Positions 27,640 to 35,596 of a stretch of 64,000 bases of DNA are shown here, piece after piece. The DNA lies in assembly GCF_038561935.1 (NCBI RefSeq), contig NZ_CP102770.1:9052001-9116000 (forward strand), given 5' to 3'. The notes under the pieces were generated by a model. That model was not told the origin of the DNA. It did no database searches and saw only the letters and a list, made by a program, of their open reading frames with translations. The stretch comes from Myxococcus stipitatus (lineage in GTDB: Bacteria; Myxococcota; Myxococcia; Myxococcales; Myxococcaceae). How positions within the stretch are numbered: the first letter of the stretch is position 1; each line of letters opens with the position of its first letter. The translations under genes were made by a program, and so were the position numbers.

Positions 27640-29301
27640 ATGGCCAAGCCCGTCATCCTCGCGGTGGACGACGACACGGAGGTGCTTCGCGCGGTGGAGC
27701 GCGACTTGCGGCGCCAGTATGGCCGCGAGTATCGCGTGCTCAGCGCGGACCGAGGTGACTCCGCGCTGGAGACCGTGCGCAAGCTCCGCCTGCGCGGCGA
27801 CCCGGTGGCGCTCTTCCTCGTGGACCAGCGCATGCCCGGCATGTCCGGCGTGGAGTTCCTGGAGCAGGCCAGGACGCTCTACGACGAGGCCCGGCGCGTG
27901 CTCCTCACCGCGTACGCGGACACGCAGGCCGCCATCCATGCCATCAACGAAGTTCGGCTGGACCACTACCTGCTCAAGCCCTGGGAGCCTCCGGAGGAGC
28001 GCCTCTACCCGGTGCTGACGGACCTGCTCGAGGAGTGGTGGGCACACCACCCGCCGACCTTCGAGGGCATCCGCGTGCTGGGCAACCGCTGGTCTCCGCG
28101 CTCCCACGCGCTGCGCGACTTCCTGGGCAGCAATCAGGTGCCGTACCAATGGCTCGACGTGGAGGCCAGCGAGGAGGGACGGCTGCTGCTCGCACAGGCG
28201 GGAGGCGCGGCGGTGGAGAAGCTCCCGCTGGTGCTCTTCCCGGATGGCACGCGGTTGATGGGGCCCTCCACGCTGGAGGTGGCCGAGCGCATCGGCCTGA
28301 AGGTCCGCGCCACCAAGCCCTTCTACGACCTGGTCATCATCGGTGGAGGTCCCGCGGGGCTCGCCGCCGCCGTGTATGGCGCGTCCGAGGGACTGAGCAC
28401 CGTCATGGTGGAGCGCAGCGCGCCGGGCGGACAGGCGGGCACCAGCTCTCGCATCGAGAACTACCTGGGGTTCCCCGCGGGCCTGAGCGGCTCCGACCTG
28501 GCGCGGCGCGCGGTGGCGCAGGCCGCGCGCTTCGGGGTGGAGATCCTCACGCCGCAGGAGGTGAAGGGCGTGCGCGTGGAGGACCCGTACCGCATCGTCG
28601 CGCTCGCGGATGGAACGGAGCTGAGCTGCCACGCGCTGCTCCTGGCCATGGGCGTGCAGTGGAAGAAGCTGGAGACGCCGGGCATCCCCTCCTTCACGGG
28701 CGCGGGCGTCTACTACGGCTCCTCTCGCACCGAGGCCCTCTCGTGCAAGGACGAGGACGTCTACATCATCGGCGGCGCCAACTCCGCCGGACAGGCCGCG
28801 CTCTACTTCGCGCAGTTCGCGCGACAGGTGACGTTGGTGGTGCGAGGCGACTCGCTGGAGCGAGGCATGTCCCACTACCTGGTGGAGCAGGTGCACTCGC
28901 TGGCCAACGTCACCGTGCTGCTCGACACGGAGGTGACGCGCGTGGAGGGCAATGCCCACCTGGAGCGCCTCACGCTGGCCACGAAGGGACAGCCCGAGCG
29001 CACCGTGCCCGCCAGCACGTTGTTCATCATGATTGGCGCGGTGCCGAGAACGGAGTGGCTGGACGGCCTGGTGGCACGCGACGCGCGCGGCTACATCCTC
29101 ACCGGCCCGGACCTGATGCCCGGCGGCGAGCGGCCCAAGGGGTGGAAGCCCGAGCGCGCGCCGTTCCTGCTGGAGACGAGCGTGCCCGGCATCTTCGCCG
29201 CGGGCGACGTGCGCCATGCGTCCATCAAGCGCGTGGCCTCCGGCGTGGGCGAGGGCTCCATCGCCATCTCCTTCATCCATCAGTACCTGAGTGAGGTGTG
29301 A
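27640..29301 (+). CDS. Response regulator fused to thioredoxin-reductase-like flavoprotein
   Basis: 553 residues in three parts. Residues 1-125 are a receiver domain with D10/D11, phospho-acceptor D62 (LFLVDQRMPG), T90 and K113. Residues about 145-220 look like a thioredoxin/glutaredoxin fold without its Cys pair. Residues 228-553 are a low-molecular-weight thioredoxin reductase fold: FAD loop VIIGGGPAGLAAA, PGGQAGTSSRIENY, NAD(P) loop IIGGANSAGQAA and GIFAAGDVR. The CxxC that reduces thioredoxin is absent: that place reads GVYYGSSRTEAL. It may therefore sense NAD(P)H or flavin state, or use another acceptor. The histidine kinase gene follows after one base and is its likely partner. Confidence 0.87.
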   Translation: MAKPVILAVDDDTEVLRAVERDLRRQYGREYRVLSADRGDSALETVRKLRLRGDPVALFLVDQRMPGMSGVEFLEQARTLYDEARRVLLTAYADTQAAIHAINEVRLDHYLLKPWEPPEERLYPVLTDLLEEWWAHHPPTFEGIRVLGNRWSPRSHALRDFLGSNQVPYQWLDVEASEEGRLLLAQAGGAAVEKLPLVLFPDGTRLMGPSTLEVAERIGLKVRATKPFYDLVIIGGGPAGLAAAVYGASEGLSTVMVERSAPGGQAGTSSRIENYLGFPAGLSGSDLARRAVAQAARFGVEILTPQEVKGVRVEDPYRIVALADGTELSCHALLLAMGVQWKKLETPGIPSFTGAGVYYGSSRTEALSCKDEDVYIIGGANSAGQAALYFAQFARQVTLVVRGDSLERGMSHYLVEQVHSLANVTVLLDTEVTRVEGNAHLERLTLATKGQPERTVPASTLFIMIGAVPRTEWLDGLVARDARGYILTGPDLMPGGERPKGWKPERAPFLLETSVPGIFAAGDVRHASIKRVASGVGEGSIAISFIHQYLSEV

Positions 29302-29302
29302 C

Positions 29303-30334
29303 ATGTCCGGGGACGAGAAGGAGCCCCAGGAGCGGCTGCGATGTCTGGAGGGCGCGCTGCTGCGGCAGGAGAAGCTGGCCGCACTGGGCCGTCACGCCGC
29401 GGGCCTCGCGCACGAGATGAACAACCCCGCCTCCGCGGGCCGCCGCGCCACCGAGCAGCTCACCCAGGCCATGGACGCGCAGGAGGACCTCTCGCTGGAG
29501 CTGGACCGGTGGAAGCTGACGCCAGCGCAGCGACAGGAGCTGCTGCGCACCTGCCGGCAGAGCCAGGGCCGAGGCGCCACCCAGGACATGGACCCGCTCA
29601 CCCGAGGCGACGCGGAGGACGCGCTGGCCACGTGGATGGATGCCCGAGGCGTGGTGAACGCGTGGGACCTGGCGCCCACGCTGCTGGACGCGGCCATCGG
29701 ACAGGAGAAGCTGGAGCCGCTCGCACAAGCCCTTCCCGCCGAGGCACTCCCGGATGCACTCGCGTGGCTGGAGGCGCTGGTGCGCACACGAGCGCTGCTG
29801 ACGGAGGTGCGGCAGAGCACCACGCGGCTGTCGGAGCTGGCCGGCGCGGTGAAGTCCTTCACCCACGCGGGCAAGGAGCACCCCGAGCCCGTGGACGTGC
29901 ACGAGGGCCTGGAGAACACGCTGCTGCTCCTCAACTACAAGCTGAAGCACGGCGTCGAGGTGAAGCGCGACTACGACCGGAGCCTGCCGCGCATCCAGGC
30001 CCTGCCGGGGATGCTCAACCACGTGTGGACGAACCTCATCGACAACGCCATCGACGCGATGGGGGGCAAGGGGCACCTCGTCGTGCGCACCGCGCGCGAG
30101 GGCGACTCGCTGCTCGTGGAGGTGGTGGATGACGGACCCGGGGTTCCGCCGGAGCTGCTGGAGCGCATCTGGGAGCCCTTCTTCACCACCAAGCCCATGG
30201 GCCACGGCACGGGCCTGGGCCTGGACATCATCCGCCGCGTCGTCGTGGAGCGTCACCACGGCGACGTGCGCGTGGAGTCACGCCCGGGCCACACGTCATT
30301 CCAGGTGCGCTTGCCGCTCGGGACCGCGGCATAG
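29303..30334 (+). CDS. Histidine kinase, soluble, probable partner of the redox regulator
   Basis: 343 residues, no membrane segment. The H box reads GLAHEMNNPAS with the phospho-accepting His at 37. A ~150-residue segment between the H box and the ATPase contains WMDARGVVNAWDLAPTL, also found in the two kinases at 31773 and 33554. The ATPase has the N box WTNLIDNAIDAMGG, DDGPGVPPE and GTGLGLDIIRRVV. The ATG follows the stop of the response-regulator fusion by one base, with GAGG five bases upstream, so both are made from one message. Confidence 0.9.
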   Translation: MSGDEKEPQERLRCLEGALLRQEKLAALGRHAAGLAHEMNNPASAGRRATEQLTQAMDAQEDLSLELDRWKLTPAQRQELLRTCRQSQGRGATQDMDPLTRGDAEDALATWMDARGVVNAWDLAPTLLDAAIGQEKLEPLAQALPAEALPDALAWLEALVRTRALLTEVRQSTTRLSELAGAVKSFTHAGKEHPEPVDVHEGLENTLLLLNYKLKHGVEVKRDYDRSLPRIQALPGMLNHVWTNLIDNAIDAMGGKGHLVVRTAREGDSLLVEVVDDGPGVPPELLERIWEPFFTTKPMGHGTGLGLDIIRRVVVERHHGDVRVESRPGHTSFQVRLPLGTAA

Positions 30335-30368
30335 CGCTCGCGAGGTCGGCGCACGGGGCCCCTGGCGC

Positions 30369-30809
30369 TCAGCCCACAAGAGACGCGCTTGTGCGGACCC
30401 CACCGCGAGCCCGACGACCCGCCACCGGACGCGTCGCGAGTCGACGGCCGACATCCGCGATGGCCTGGACAATGGGAATCAGCTCTCGACCCAGGTCGGT
30501 GAGCGTGTACTCGGCGGAAGCCGGCGTGGTGGGCGTGAGGGTGCGCGCGATGACACCCCGCGCTTCGAGTTCTCGGAGCCGCTGGCTGAGCACTCGCGCG
30601 GAGACGTTCGGGATGTCGATGCGCAGCTCACCGAAGCGCCGCGCACGCGCACTCAAGAAGTAGATGACGTGTGGAGCCCAGGCTCCGCCGAGCAGCGCCA
30701 TCGAGCGGTTGAGCGGGCATTCCTCCGTCACCCCCGAGCCCTTGCCGCGTTGGCGCCGGTCGATGTCGACGGGAGGTGTTGCTGGATTCTTCCTGACCTT
30801 GAGCGCCAT
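30369..30809 (-). CDS. HxlR-family transcriptional regulator
   Basis: 146 residues. A winged helix spans about 30-120 with the family pattern ECPLNRSMALLGGAWAPHVIYFL, FGELRIDIPNVSARVLSQRLRELE and EYTLTDLGREL. The single Cys at about residue 31 is in the position of the conserved redox-sensing Cys of HxlR-type regulators such as YodB. The N-terminus is about 25 residues longer than usual and basic; an internal start is possible. It is divergent from the NmrA-like gene, and a palindrome just upstream of its own start suggests self-control. Confidence 0.88.
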   Translation of the reverse strand: MALKVRKNPATPPVDIDRRQRGKGSGVTEECPLNRSMALLGGAWAPHVIYFLSARARRFGELRIDIPNVSARVLSQRLRELEARGVIARTLTPTTPASAEYTLTDLGRELIPIVQAIADVGRRLATRPVAGRRARGGVRTSASLVG

Positions 30810-30812
30810 GTC

Positions 30813-30830
30813 GGTAACCGTGAGGTTACT
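30813..30830. promoter_or_regulatory. Probable HxlR operator
   Basis: GTAACC (30814-30819) and GGTTAC (30824-30829) form a perfect inverted repeat around a 4-base spacer, four bases upstream of the HxlR start codon. HxlR dimers bind such short GTAA/TTAC palindromes. Position and symmetry suggest autoregulation and control of the divergent gene. Confidence 0.55.
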
Positions 30831-30879
30831 GGAAAGCCCATCGCCCTCGCGTTGTCCACTGTCTCTTCGTCACCTCGGC

Positions 30880-30893
30880 CGCTATCGATAGCG
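30880..30893. promoter_or_regulatory. 14-base perfect palindrome upstream of the NmrA-like gene
   Basis: CGCTATCGATAGCG is fully self-complementary. It lies 25 bases before the NmrA-like start codon, in a place suited for an operator at or below the transcription start. It differs from the GTAACC palindrome, so a second regulator may act here. Confidence 0.45.
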
Positions 30894-30918
30894 CGAACCC
30901 TTTCGGTGGAGCGGTCGA

Positions 30919-31758
30919 ATGTTCGTGGTGATTGGCGCGACGGGAAACGTGGGGCGTGAGCTGGTCCAGCTGTTGTCGGAGGCGGGAGAGGAAGTGGTCG
31001 CGGTGGCACGCCATGCGGGCGCGCCAGTGCCTTCGTCGAAGGTCCGCCAGGTCCAGGCGGACATGTCGGCTCCGGAGTCCCTCGCGCCACATCTGCGAGG
31101 CGCAACGGGTGTCTTCCTGCTCGTCCCCGGCGCGGGCGCGGGCCTGGACGCTCGTGCCTTGCGGACGGTGTTCGAGGCCGCGGGGGTGAAGCGGCTGGTG
31201 GTGCTGTCGTCCATGGCCGTCGGCACGCGCCCCTCGGCCCCGTCGCATGCGCCGCTTCGCGATATCGAAGCCATCTTCCGGGAGTCGTCACTGCGCTGCA
31301 CGTTCCTCCGGCCCTCGGGCTTCGCGTCGAACGCGTTCGCCTGGGCGGGCCCGGTGCGCACCGAGCGCGGTGTCGCCGCGCCCTTCGCCGATGTGGCGCT
31401 GCCCGTCGTGGACCCGGCGGACATCGCGGCGGTCGCCGCCCGCGTCCTCCGCGAGGAGGGACACGCCGGCAAGGTGTACGTGCTCACCGGCCCCGAGGCC
31501 ATCTCTCCACGCCAGCAAGCCGCCGTCCTCTCCGAGGCCGTGGGAGCCCCGCTGCGCTTCATGGAGTGGAGCCGTGACGAGGCGCTCGCCATGATGAAGC
31601 GGTTCATGCCCGAGCCCGTCGCCGAGGGAACCCTCGACATCCTGGGCACGCCGACGGACGACGAGCGGCGCGTCAGCCCGGATGTGGAGCGGGTGCTGGG
31701 GCGGCCCGCGAACCCGTTCTCCGCGTGGGTCGGTCGCAACATCGCCGCGTTCCGCTGA
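30919..31758 (+). CDS. NmrA/SDR-type NAD(P)-binding protein, possible quinone oxidoreductase
   Basis: 279 residues. The Rossmann loop is VIGATGNVGRELVQLL at the extreme N-terminus, followed by an Arg (AVARHAG) that favours NADP. The later pattern (GVFLLVPGAGAG, LVVLSSMAVG, TFLRPSGFASNAF, VVDPADIAAVAARVL) is that of the atypical SDR group containing NmrA and QorB-like NAD(P)H:quinone reductases. No catalytic Tyr-Lys pair is visible, so it may be enzyme or sensor. Divergently paired with HxlR, a common arrangement for quinone/electrophile-response genes. Confidence 0.85.
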   Translation: MFVVIGATGNVGRELVQLLSEAGEEVVAVARHAGAPVPSSKVRQVQADMSAPESLAPHLRGATGVFLLVPGAGAGLDARALRTVFEAAGVKRLVVLSSMAVGTRPSAPSHAPLRDIEAIFRESSLRCTFLRPSGFASNAFAWAGPVRTERGVAAPFADVALPVVDPADIAAVAARVLREEGHAGKVYVLTGPEAISPRQQAAVLSEAVGAPLRFMEWSRDEALAMMKRFMPEPVAEGTLDILGTPTDDERRVSPDVERVLGRPANPFSAWVGRNIAAFR

Positions 31759-31772
31759 CGGGTGTCTCTCGG

Positions 31773-33311
31773 TCAGGCGCCGCGCAGCTCATCGGGCTCG
31801 AGATGCTGGCGCGCCACCGCGGGACGCGGACGCGCGGGCTCGGGGATGAACGCCCCCTCGAGCTCGAAGGGCAGACGAACCTGGAAGCGCGTCCACCCCG
31901 GCTGCGACGCGACGGACACCTCGCCCCGATGGAGCATCGACACCACGCGGTGGGTGATGCTCAGCCCCAACCCCGTCCCCTCCCCCACGCCCTTCGTGGT
32001 GAAGAACGGGTCGAAGATGCGCGGCAGCACCTCCTCGGGGATGCCGGGCCCGTCGTCTTCGACCTCGACCACCACGTGGTCCCCGTCTCGCTGCGTGCGC
32101 AACGTCAGCGTCCCTCCGCCGCTCTCCTTGATGGCGTCGGCCGCGTTCTCGATGAGGCTGGTCCACACCTGATTCAGCTCCGTGCCGTACGCGGTGATGG
32201 CGGGGATGCTCCGGTCATACTCGCGCTTCACCTCGATGCCGCGCAGCCGATGGGCCAGCACGGCCAGCGTGCTCTCCAACCCGTCGTGCACATCCACGCG
32301 CTGCAACGGCGCTTCATCCAGGTACGTGTACGCGCGGGCCGCGTTCACCAGCGAGGCGATGCGCCCCCCGGCCTGCCCCACCTCCTCCAGCAGCACCGAG
32401 ATTCCACGCGTCGCCGCCACCCAGCGCAGCGTGCCCTTCAGCACCTCGCCCGTCAGCGGCGACAGCTCATGCTCCAGTCGCTCGAGCGACAGCCCCGACT
32501 CCACCAGCTCCGGCGCCAGCACCCACGCCTCCTCCACCCCCCGCGCATCCAGCCAGCGCGCCAGCGCGTCCTCGTCGTCTCCCCGGTCCAGCGGACTGCG
32601 AGCCATGGGCTCCAGCGAAGAGGCCCTCGACTCCAGCGCGCGGACCTGCGGCTCGGACAGGGTGCGGCAGTCGAGCGACAGGGCCAGCGCGGGGAGCTCG
32701 CGCAGCCGGTCGGCCAGCGCGCGCACGCCTCGCATCACCGCGGACACGGGGTTGTTCAGCTCATGCGCCAGCCCCGCGGCCAGCGTGCCGAGTGACGCCA
32801 GCTTCTCCTGTTGAAGCGAGATGGACTGGAGCGACTTCATGCGCTCGGCCATCTTCTTGAGAATCTCCCGGTGCGCCGTGGGGCACTCCGCGAGCATCCG
32901 CCAGAAGGCCTGGTTCGACAGGCGCAACAGCCGGCAGTGGGTGATGGCGCGGCTGCTCGCGAGGAAGCACTGGCCCAACAAGAGCGGCACCTCGCCGAAG
33001 AAGTCTCCCGCCCCGAAGACGGAGATGAGCGTCTCCACGCCGCCCACCGTCTTGGTGATGCGCAGCGAGCCCTCCAGGATGAGATAGAAGGCGGAGGGCT
33101 CGCCCTCTCGACCCAGCCACTCCCGCGGCTGGAGCTCGATGAGGGTGGACTCGCCGCGCACCCACTCGGCCTCCTCCGCCTCCACCTCGGCGAAGATGGA
33201 GATGGTCCGCAGCTCCTCCAGGAAGCGGGACGACGCCATGGCGCCACGCGAGTGCTCCCTCGGCGCTCCGAGGGACTCCGTGCGCGACTGTGGAGCGGCT
33301 CGAGGCTCCAT
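31773..33311 (-). CDS. Cyclic-nucleotide-domain histidine kinase
   Basis: 512 residues from the ATG at 33311, which has AAGGAG eight bases upstream; open frame further upstream is not needed. Residues about 28-145 are a cNMP-binding domain (ISIFAEVEAEEAEWV, GEPSAFYLILEGSLRI, FGAGDFFGEVPLLLG). The H box is GLAHELNNPVSAV with His 183. The segment WLDARGVEEAWVLAPEL identifies the same family as the kinases at 29303 and 33554. ATPase: N box WTSLIENAADAI, DDGPGIPEE, GTGLGLSITHRVV. Soluble. It diverges from the 33554 gene across a 242-base gap. Confidence 0.9.
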   Translation of the reverse strand: MEPRAAPQSRTESLGAPREHSRGAMASSRFLEELRTISIFAEVEAEEAEWVRGESTLIELQPREWLGREGEPSAFYLILEGSLRITKTVGGVETLISVFGAGDFFGEVPLLLGQCFLASSRAITHCRLLRLSNQAFWRMLAECPTAHREILKKMAERMKSLQSISLQQEKLASLGTLAAGLAHELNNPVSAVMRGVRALADRLRELPALALSLDCRTLSEPQVRALESRASSLEPMARSPLDRGDDEDALARWLDARGVEEAWVLAPELVESGLSLERLEHELSPLTGEVLKGTLRWVAATRGISVLLEEVGQAGGRIASLVNAARAYTYLDEAPLQRVDVHDGLESTLAVLAHRLRGIEVKREYDRSIPAITAYGTELNQVWTSLIENAADAIKESGGGTLTLRTQRDGDHVVVEVEDDGPGIPEEVLPRIFDPFFTTKGVGEGTGLGLSITHRVVSMLHRGEVSVASQPGWTRFQVRLPFELEGAFIPEPARPRPAVARQHLEPDELRGA

Positions 33312-33553
33312 GCGATGGGCTCCTTCCGGCCTGCGTTCCCTCAACATTGCGCCCCGCCCAGGCCTCTCGCCGACGGCCACGCTCCACCGTCCGCCACCCG
33401 GCCGGACGTGCGGCCCCCTTCCCCGAGCCACCAGGCAGCGGCTCCCTGCCCTCGTCCGGCGAGGCCCCCACGCCTCGAATCGGCCAATTCCGTGCCTCCG
33501 ACTCAGGAGAAGATGGACACCCTTCGTGGGACCCAGGCAGCATCCACGGACAC

Positions 33554-34942
33554 ATGGGAAGCGAGGACATCGTCACAGCGCTGCGCCGGGTTCCGCTGTT
33601 CTCCCGGCTGGGCGACGAGCAGCTCCACTGGGTGGCCAGCCACGGCCGTCAGCTTCACTTCCCCGCGGGGACTCGCGTCGCCGTGCAGGGAGACCCGGCG
33701 GACGGGCTCTCCATCATCCTCGAGGGCCGCACGGAGTGGACCCGCAAGGTGGGAGAGCAGGAGGCCCCCACGGGCGCGCTGGAGGCGGGCGAGGTCTTCG
33801 GAGAGGTCATCCTCTTCCTCAACGCGCCCTACCCCACCACCGGCCACGCGAGCACGGATGTGCGCCTGCTCCGGCTGGAGCCCGCGGCCTTCTGGGAGCT
33901 GCTCCGACAAGCGCCCGTGCTGGGGCGAGGCCTCATGGAGGTGGCCGCCCAGCGCACCCAGGCCCAGGAGGTCGTGTCCACGCAGCAGCCCGGGCCGCTG
34001 TCTCCGGGGCAGATGGTGGCGGGGCTCGCCCCCGAGCTGAGCAACCCCGCGTCGTCCGCGAACCGCAGCGCCGCCCGGCTGCGAGACACGCTGCGCCTGG
34101 TGTCCGCGCGAGCCATGGCGCTGGGTCAGCACGGGCTGTCCTCCGCGCAGCGAGGCGCGCTCCTCGCCCTGCCTCGGGAGGCCGCGGACCGGGCCCGCGC
34201 CACGCCCGCGCTGGAGCCCCTGGCGCGGACGCTGCGCGAGGAGGAGGTGGGCTCGTGGCTGGAGCTTCGCGGCATGGCGGACGCGTGGGACGTGGCGCCC
34301 GCGCTGGTGGCTTCGGGCCTGGATGGCGCGTGGCTGGACTCGGTGGCGCGCCGCGTGGGTGAGGCGCTCCTGCGCGACACCCTCTCCTGGCTGGTGGCCG
34401 CGGTGAGCGGTGACGTGCTCCTGGCGGAAGTGGAGCGCGGCAGTGCCCGGGTCTCCGCGCTGGTGGAGGCGGTGAAGGCCTACAGCTTCATGGACCGCGC
34501 CCCCGCGGCGGAGGTGGATGTCCACGAGGGGCTGGAGGGCGCGCTGGCCGTGCTCTCGCATCGGCTGACGGGGGGCAACGTCGCGGTGGTGCGGCAGTAC
34601 GCGCCGTCGGCGCCCAAGCTCCGGGGTGAGCAGGGCGCGCTCGACGAGGCGTGGACGCAGCTGGTGTTGAACGCGCTGGAGGCGCTGGGTGAGCGCGGCG
34701 GGACGCTGCGGCTGCGCACGTGGACGGAGCCGGAGAAGGTGGTGGTGGAGGTGGCGGATGACGGCCCCGGCATTCCCCGGGACTTGATGCCGCGCATCTT
34801 CGAGCCCTTCTTCAGCACGAAGCCCAACGCGGCGGGCCTGGGGTTGGACATCAGCCGGCGCATCATCGAGCGGCACGGCGGCGACGTGCGCGTCCTCTCC
34901 GAGCCGGGCAACACCCGCGTGCAGGTGCGGCTGCCCGCGTAG
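33554..34942 (+). CDS. Cyclic-nucleotide-domain kinase homologue lacking the H-box histidine
   Basis: 462 residues from the ATG at 33554; no good ribosome site, so the start is provisional. Residues 5-125 are a cNMP-binding domain (LFSRLGDEQLHWVASHG, DGLSIILEGRTEW, LEAGEVFGEVILFL). The H-box region reads GLAPELSNPASS: the expected His is Pro 160 (codon CCC at 34031-34033, one base from CAC). The shared segment appears as WLELRGMADAWDVAPAL. The ATPase domain is intact (VLNALEALGERGG, DDGPGIPRD, GLGLDISRRII). It cannot autophosphorylate at the usual place; it may act as a regulator of its relatives or phosphorylate another kinase's receiver. Confidence 0.88.
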   Translation: MGSEDIVTALRRVPLFSRLGDEQLHWVASHGRQLHFPAGTRVAVQGDPADGLSIILEGRTEWTRKVGEQEAPTGALEAGEVFGEVILFLNAPYPTTGHASTDVRLLRLEPAAFWELLRQAPVLGRGLMEVAAQRTQAQEVVSTQQPGPLSPGQMVAGLAPELSNPASSANRSAARLRDTLRLVSARAMALGQHGLSSAQRGALLALPREAADRARATPALEPLARTLREEEVGSWLELRGMADAWDVAPALVASGLDGAWLDSVARRVGEALLRDTLSWLVAAVSGDVLLAEVERGSARVSALVEAVKAYSFMDRAPAAEVDVHEGLEGALAVLSHRLTGGNVAVVRQYAPSAPKLRGEQGALDEAWTQLVLNALEALGERGGTLRLRTWTEPEKVVVEVADDGPGIPRDLMPRIFEPFFSTKPNAAGLGLDISRRIIERHGGDVRVLSEPGNTRVQVRLPA

Positions 34943-34977: not shown

Positions 34978-35098
34978 GAGCATCCACCGGTGGACGAAAG
35001 CCGGGCCGCGAGCGTCATGCCGTGTACGACCGCGAGGAAGTCCCTGGCCCAGGGAGATATGCGGCGATGGAGTGCGCCCACGACAAGGGGAGCACTTC

Positions 35099-35596
35099 AT
35101 GTCCGGCGAAATCCAGGGCGCCTGGTTCAAGGCCATCATCGGCTCGATGACAGCGGCGTCCTCGCGCTTTCCGGCGCATCAGCGAACCATCAACAGCATG
35201 CAGGACGAGACCTGGTACGACTGGGAGGAATACCTCCGCATGCTGGGTGAGCTTCACGCCGCGCTGGGAGACCGCGCGGTGGAGGCCATCGCCCAGCGCT
35301 CTGCGATGCGCACCCTGCCGATTGCGCGCGCGCGGGGCTTCGACTCGGTGGAGAAGATTTTCGGCGACTTCGACGCGGTGCTGCGCAGCCTGGTGCGAGA
35401 CCTGCCCGTGGCGGACAGCGCGCGCACGGTCGCCTTCATGCCGCTGGCGGCGGAGCTGGAGAGTGGCTCGCGCCTGCCGGCCCCGCTGCTGCTGGGCACC
35501 TTCCGAGGCTTCCTGATGGGCTTCGGCAAGATTGTCACCGAGGCGAAGATGACGCCTCGGCACGGGCTGCGGCGCTACTCGCTCAAGTGGATGTGA
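35099..35596 (+). CDS. Hypothetical protein, soluble
   Basis: 165 residues. The ATG is preceded by AAGGGGAG six bases upstream. Predicted mainly helical; conspicuous stretches are QDETWYDWEEYLRMLGELH and RGFLMGFGKIVTEAK. No signal peptide, membrane helix or motif that I recognise. Its size and pattern recall small myxobacterial paralogous families, but I cannot assign it. Its last 14 bases overlap the end of the convergent YjdF-like gene. Confidence 0.65.
   Translation: MSGEIQGAWFKAIIGSMTAASSRFPAHQRTINSMQDETWYDWEEYLRMLGELHAALGDRAVEAIAQRSAMRTLPIARARGFDSVEKIFGDFDAVLRSLVRDLPVADSARTVAFMPLAAELESGSRLPAPLLLGTFRGFLMGFGKIVTEAKMTPRHGLRRYSLKWM

Follow-up and report, generated by a model that had tools for sequence, protein, structure and literature searches.

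The locus lies within a window of 64,000 nucleotides, the whole stretch of DNA that was analysed, from the 10.2 Mb genome of Myxococcus stipitatus. It encodes a response regulator fusion (RR) and three related kinases (K1, K2, and K3) that span 5.7 kb (Table 1). RR and K1 are separated by a single base, as had been stated in an earlier sequence-only reading of this DNA: the stop codon of RR ends at 29301 and the ATG of K1 begins at 29303. The closest named locus is that of Myxococcus eversor, which is 92% identical to K1 across the DHp and the insert. A sigma-70 promoter scan returned no match, and such a scan is uninformative for this organism.

Table 1. Features of the RR/kinase locus (positions in the window unless a locus is named)
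Feature	Position	Strand	Basis
RR: receiver / glutaredoxin-fold / thioredoxin-reductase-like fusion, 553 aa	27640..29301	+	Pfam; AF2 pLDDT 88.8; 71 aligned sequences alike in architecture
RR receiver domain	27640..27999	+	catalytic residues invariant
RR phosphoacceptor Asp62	27823-27825	+	conservation; residue check
RR glutaredoxin-fold domain without CPxC	28057..28305	+	AF2; weak Pfam; conservation
RR thioredoxin-reductase-like FAD / pyridine-nucleotide domain	28321..29298	+	structural match; alignment
K1: histidine kinase without cNMP domain	29303..30334	+	Pfam; alignment
K1 phosphoacceptor His37	29411-29413	+	residue check
K1 insert, DHp hairpin tip	29510..29737	+	alignment to K2; AF2 model of K2
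K1 HATPase	30014-30322	+	Pfam
HxlR-type regulator / NmrA-like protein pair	30369-31758		
K2: cNMP domain + histidine kinase	31773 to about 33239	-	Pfam; AF2 pLDDT 88.9
K2 four-helix insert, DHp hairpin tip	32451..32669	-	AF2 helices
K2 phosphoacceptor His159	32763-32765	-	residue check
K2 cNMP-binding-type domain	32886..33137	-	Pfam; phosphate-cassette Glu + Arg present
K3: cNMP domain + pseudo-histidine-kinase	33554..34942	+	alignment; dN/dS 0.06-0.42 vs orthologs
K3 cNMP-binding-type domain	33653..33910	+	Pfam; cassette Arg to His
K3 Pro160 where phosphoacceptor His is expected	34031-34033	+	alignment; residue check
K3 insert, counterpart of the DHp-tip domain	34136..34363	+	alignment
174-aa protein 3' of K3	35072-35596		
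zf-UBP protein beside the module in other loci	L104 5495-5851; L102 11344-11721; L134 5462-5782; L088 8975-11320; about 8 others		

The response regulator

RR is matched by the Pfam models Response_reg (E 1.9e-15) and Pyr_redox_2 (E 1.4e-37). D10, D11, D62, T90, and K113 of the receiver are invariant (n=46 sequences), which identifies RR as a response regulator. The domain that follows has the secondary structure order b-a-b-a-b-b-a of a glutaredoxin fold in the AF2 model, and its Pfam Glutaredoxin match is weak (E 0.1 in the window, 2.4e-4 in locus L120). Where a glutaredoxin carries CPxC, the sequence is RWSPRS here and RWSPxS across the family, with Pro196 invariant, so the domain does not qualify as a glutaredoxin; an alignment of 71 sequences contains no conserved Cys in it.

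The C-terminal domain has the fold of a thioredoxin-reductase-like flavoprotein, as shown by a structural match to 4a5l (Z 31.2, rmsd 2.7). The CATC of M. smegmatis thioredoxin reductase aligns with GSSR in RR, and CxxC was found in none of 71 RR sequences, which does not allow assignment as a thioredoxin reductase (EC 1.8.1.9). The score against the thioredoxin-reductase equivalog model TIGR01292 was 214, below the cutoff of 343. By sequence, RR is a thioredoxin reductase homologue for which action by dithiol exchange is very unlikely; thiol-disulfide chemistry is unlikely because CxxC and CPxC are both missing. A thiol relay from the glutaredoxin-fold domain to the reductase-like domain was rejected as well, since both lack a cysteine pair. 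The term "redox" in the sequence-only reading has its basis in the flavoprotein fold alone, and the cysteine losses argue against the label "thioredoxin reductase" that homology alone would suggest.

A flavoprotein that is still a thiol reductase, acting through Cys369 (or Cys330) instead of CxxC, would fit the presence of Cys369 in 55 of about 70 sequences and of Cys330 in 59 of 71. However, neither residue is universal, Cys369 being replaced by Tyr, His, and others in some RRs (e.g., in Verrucomicrobiota), and with CxxC absent and no conserved Cys in the glutaredoxin-fold domain this possibility appears decidedly improbable.

Low-molecular-weight thioredoxin reductase and AhpF share with RR the fold (Z about 31, rmsd 2.7), the FAD motif GGGPAG, and the pyridine-nucleotide-binding-type motif GGANSA. 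AhpF, the top Foldseek match of RR, also has N-terminal thioredoxin-fold domains, comparable to the glutaredoxin-fold domain of RR. Unlike both, RR combines a reductase domain without CxxC, a glutaredoxin fold without CPxC, and an N-terminal receiver. A receiver followed by a thioredoxin-reductase-like flavoprotein domain, as in RR, was listed as a "Mycobacterium-like" architecture of the enzymatic-output type in a 2018 survey of response regulators (PMC5847659). The passages found in that survey list the architecture only and mention neither a partner kinase nor a glutaredoxin-fold linker, loss of cysteines, or co-occurrence.

The kinase family and its DHp-tip insert

All three kinases contain HATPase_c according to Pfam (E about 1e-26 in K1 and K2), and cNMP_binding is matched by K2 (2.6e-17) and K3 (8.8e-16) and not by K1. 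In the alignment, identity to K1 is 48% for K2 and 41% for K3. A search of the own genome with K1 recovered the three family kinases at 761, 289, and 227 bits in alignments spanning DHp, insert, and ATPase. Of the 126 matches, the one ranked after them scored 121 bits and was confined to the ATPase half. Because of this score gap, the kinship of K1, K2, and K3 is not due to chance. K1 and K2 carry the phosphoacceptor His in GLAHE(M/L)NNP together with N, G1, and G2 boxes, which makes them histidine kinases, and outside the K3 clade almost every family member has all four boxes intact. The DHp and CA core and these four boxes are shared with the HisKA/HATPase kinases ZraS, HK853, and CckA, whereas the four-helix DHp-tip insert of about 73 aa is a difference from them.

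This insert is the special segment that had been noticed in the three kinases from the sequence. The motifs quoted for it, WMDARGVVNAWDLAP, WLDARGVEEAWVLAP, and WLELRGMADAWDVAP, are real and mutually aligned. A DHp-plus-insert profile gave full-length matches in the own genome only to K1, K2, and K3, and the other match listed covers the H box only; the segment is restricted to the K1/K2/K3 kinase family and does not occur at large in unrelated kinases of this genome. The proposal that it replaces a helical hairpin did not hold. In the AF2 model of K2 (58 sequences), the cNMP domain leads into DHp helix 1 through a single long helix (120-190), which is followed by the insert helices 196-208, 216-232, 238-247, and 252-258 and then by DHp helix 2 at 264-306. 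The segment is thus modelled as a four-helix insert of about 73 residues at the tip of the DHp hairpin, with both hairpin arms retained. The insert had no match in Pfam or PDB by sequence, which says nothing on known folds, and in whole-model Foldseek and VIA searches it is mainly the large domains that determine the matches.

Of 100 kinase frames (80 loci), 90 have the cNMP domain, and some of the other ten are truncated. The domain is the family norm, so K1 has most likely lost it. K2 and K3 do carry a cNMP domain, as had been noticed, but the idea that they added it is reversed. K2 keeps the Glu and Arg of the phosphate-binding cassette (FGE...SRA), as expected of a cNMP-binding domain. The sensor kinase of this family probably reads a small nucleotide.

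K3 as a pseudokinase

The H box of K3 is GLAPELSNP, in which Pro takes the place of the phosphoacceptor His, so K3 is not classed as a histidine kinase. None of the 21 compared sequences of the K3 clade has this His; Pro, Gly, or Ala is found instead. Outside the clade nearly every family member has it, with one exception. The exception is a second His-less member (L107 6030-7514, GLAQELRQV), located between two intact kinases in a cyanobacterium. The N box, the G1 box, and the fold of K3 are kept, and the G2 box is changed from GTGLGL to AAGLGL. In its cNMP cassette the Glu is present and the Arg has become His, so the domain is not assigned as a cNMP binder.

The K3 gene is intact in relatives, and its dN/dS of 0.06-0.42 resembles that of K1 and K2, indicating purifying selection. 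All 27 genomes sampled within the genus contain K3. In 16 of them RR, K1, and K2 are missing, and the chromosomal place of K3 is unchanged in genomes without RR. Comparison of these sequences indicates that K3 is a conserved pseudokinase whose role would not require RR, because the His is lost, the gene is intact, and it is kept in the 16 genomes without RR. It is a natural pseudokinase with adjoining active paralogs in some genomes and without them in others, a setting in which the origin of pseudokinases can be compared.

The sequence-only reading had placed the three kinases in one pathway. In its strong form, all three would be active and converge on RR, integrating several nucleotide or redox signals. 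Tandem kinases in two or three copies beside one RR do recur in Cyanobacteria and Rubrobacteraceae, and in Acidobacteriota a single RR can be accompanied by as many as four kinases in a genome. However, the Pro at the phosphoacceptor site of K3, the absence of His from its whole clade, and the persistence of K3 in the 16 genomes without RR, K1, and K2 make such convergence highly improbable.

DivL of Caulobacter is a pseudo-histidine-kinase in which the phosphoacceptor His is replaced and the kinase fold is kept (PMC4211667), and K3 is alike in both respects. The K3 clade has Pro, Gly, or Ala where DivL has Tyr, and K3 has a cNMP domain where DivL has PAS domains. DivL is the best functional analogy for K3. 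By this analogy, K3 may bind a phosphorylated receiver (maybe RR, elsewhere another) and relay or titrate it. Such a role agrees with the loss of His from a protein that has retained its fold, N box, and G1 box under purifying selection, as in DivL, and with retention at the same locus in genomes without RR, but the altered G2 box speaks against it. It is a possible role for K3, though not the probable one.

Origin of the three kinases

In the kinase tree, K1, K2, and K3 each form their own clade with full support and long stems (0.6-0.65), and the trio was not recovered together. The trio had been named as the test group before the tree was seen. A forced K1+K2+K3 clade was rejected (AU p = 0.012), and among the forced kinase pairs no single pair was rejected by the AU test; the long stems and the biased composition of K3 are caveats of this tree.

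These results bear on the earlier proposal of local duplication, of which a recent tandem triplication in myxobacteria is the simplest form. The location of the three kinases within 5.7 kb would suit it, as would the finding that no other protein of the genome matches K1 as well as K2 does. In contrast, the separate long-stemmed clades, the rejection of the trio, and a mutual identity of 40-48%, no higher than that to cyanobacterial members, make it unlikely. One recent triplication is disfavoured by the sequences.

Pairing of the kinase with RR across genomes

Kinase loci were collected from Cyanobacteria, Chloroflexota, Acidobacteriota, Verrucomicrobiota, Actinomycetota, and others (80 in total, about nine phyla). 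A full RR lies near the kinase (within about 5 kb) in 58 of them. It is usually directly upstream; 56 of these 58 loci have both genes on the same strand, and most of the gene pairs overlap or are at most about 200 bp apart. The loci without a complete adjacent RR, many of which lie on short contigs, represent 18 genomes: 14 have a full-length RR elsewhere, one has an RR split over two contigs, and three have none.

The search for co-occurrence that the sequence-only reading had proposed gave identical sets of genomes. Full RR and full kinase were found in the same 6 of 146 genomes of Cyanobacteria (hypergeometric p 8e-11) and in the same 19 of 149 genomes of Acidobacteriota (p 2e-24), and RR, K1, and K2 were found in the same 13 of 193 genomes of Myxococcota (p 2e-20); these values ignore relatedness and are too small, as the co-occurrence is among related genomes. 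The cut-off for "full" was the large score gap in each table and was set after the tables were seen, and the cyanobacterial and acidobacterial draws each include one centre genome chosen for holding the kinase. The pairing of kinase and RR is strongly supported as real. Neighbourhood and presence or absence agree in three phyla, which also supports a single dedicated unit made up of the receiver/flavoprotein and the kinase family. The one-pathway proposal stands to this extent, and K3, His-less and kept without RR, falls outside it.

The dependence of the kinase on RR is not absolute, because His-bearing family kinases occur without RR in at least one other genus of the same myxobacterial family (L149 7962-9509, L150 7741-9402, L159 7634-9301) and K3 stands alone in 16 genomes. 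A divergent receiver/thioredoxin-reductase subfamily that lacks the kinase (L155-L158) also counts against the two-component reading given below.

Proposed mechanism

The preferred reading, with a probability of roughly 0.7, is a widespread two-component system in which a cNMP-type kinase phosphorylates Asp62 of the neighbouring flavoprotein fusion, with K1 and K2 as donors and K3 separate. The histidine kinase, cytoplasmic and equipped with the DHp-tip insert and a cNMP-binding-type domain at its N-terminus, would transfer phosphate to Asp62 and thereby regulate the FAD / pyridine-nucleotide module of RR. At this locus the likely phosphodonors are K1, whose input domain would have been lost, and K2, in which it is kept; by established two-component biochemistry, their phosphorylation of Asp62 may be expected to alter the flavoprotein. 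K3 is predicted not to autophosphorylate and would have a separate role despite the same architecture. The module is probably not a disulfide reductase, because both cysteine motifs are gone; electron transfer to a different acceptor, or service as a switch that depends on flavin or NAD(P)H, is more likely. Phosphotransfer, the ligand, the direction of control, and the reaction catalysed are what we infer in this mechanism.

A broader proposal can be put forward tentatively, at somewhat less than even odds. A nucleotide-reading kinase would gate, via the receiver, a flavoenzyme derived from thioredoxin reductase and free of the active-site cysteines, a non-transcriptional coupling to electron transfer present in about nine phyla, and a kinase-dead myxobacterial paralog would have been repurposed as an independent signalling protein. 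With a dedicated kinase family, marked by the DHp-tip insert, assigned to receiver/thioredoxin-reductase fusions, the system becomes open to tests on purified proteins. A search of open-access text for a study of the kinase/RR system, which its wording may limit, found none beyond the mention of the architecture in PMC5847659. Term searches of reviews on cyanobacterial thioredoxin systems and redox signalling (PMC9025218, PMC13421787) returned no passage on the system.

Neighbouring genes and related loci

An HxlR-type regulator and an NmrA-like NAD(P)-binding protein are encoded divergently between K1 and K2. The same pair is present in one relative (G075), and it is missing from others (L151, L152, L061), where K1 and K2 are nearly contiguous. 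The pair is apparently an insertion between K1 and K2, and its two genes were rejected as parts of the module for the same reason.

In most relatives, a predicted membrane protein of about 600 aa is encoded on the same strand 5' of K3 (L148 9532-11313, L151 7572-9464). Eight other genomes were compared at the locus, and six of them have this gene before K3 or at the corresponding place; it is missing in the window. The 174-aa protein encoded 3' of K3 is kept at the same place in several relatives and has no Pfam or NCBIfam match. In other Myxococcota, a divergent receiver/glutaredoxin-like/thioredoxin-reductase subfamily, about 44% identical, is found with no family kinase nearby (L155-L158).

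A zf-UBP zinc-finger protein adjoins the RR/kinase module in about 12 of the 80 loci, too few for it to be accepted as a core part. In L088, the zf-UBP domain is the C-terminus of a Kef-type antiporter. Elsewhere in the own genome there are one free zf-UBP protein and one Kef/zf-UBP protein (L160, L161).
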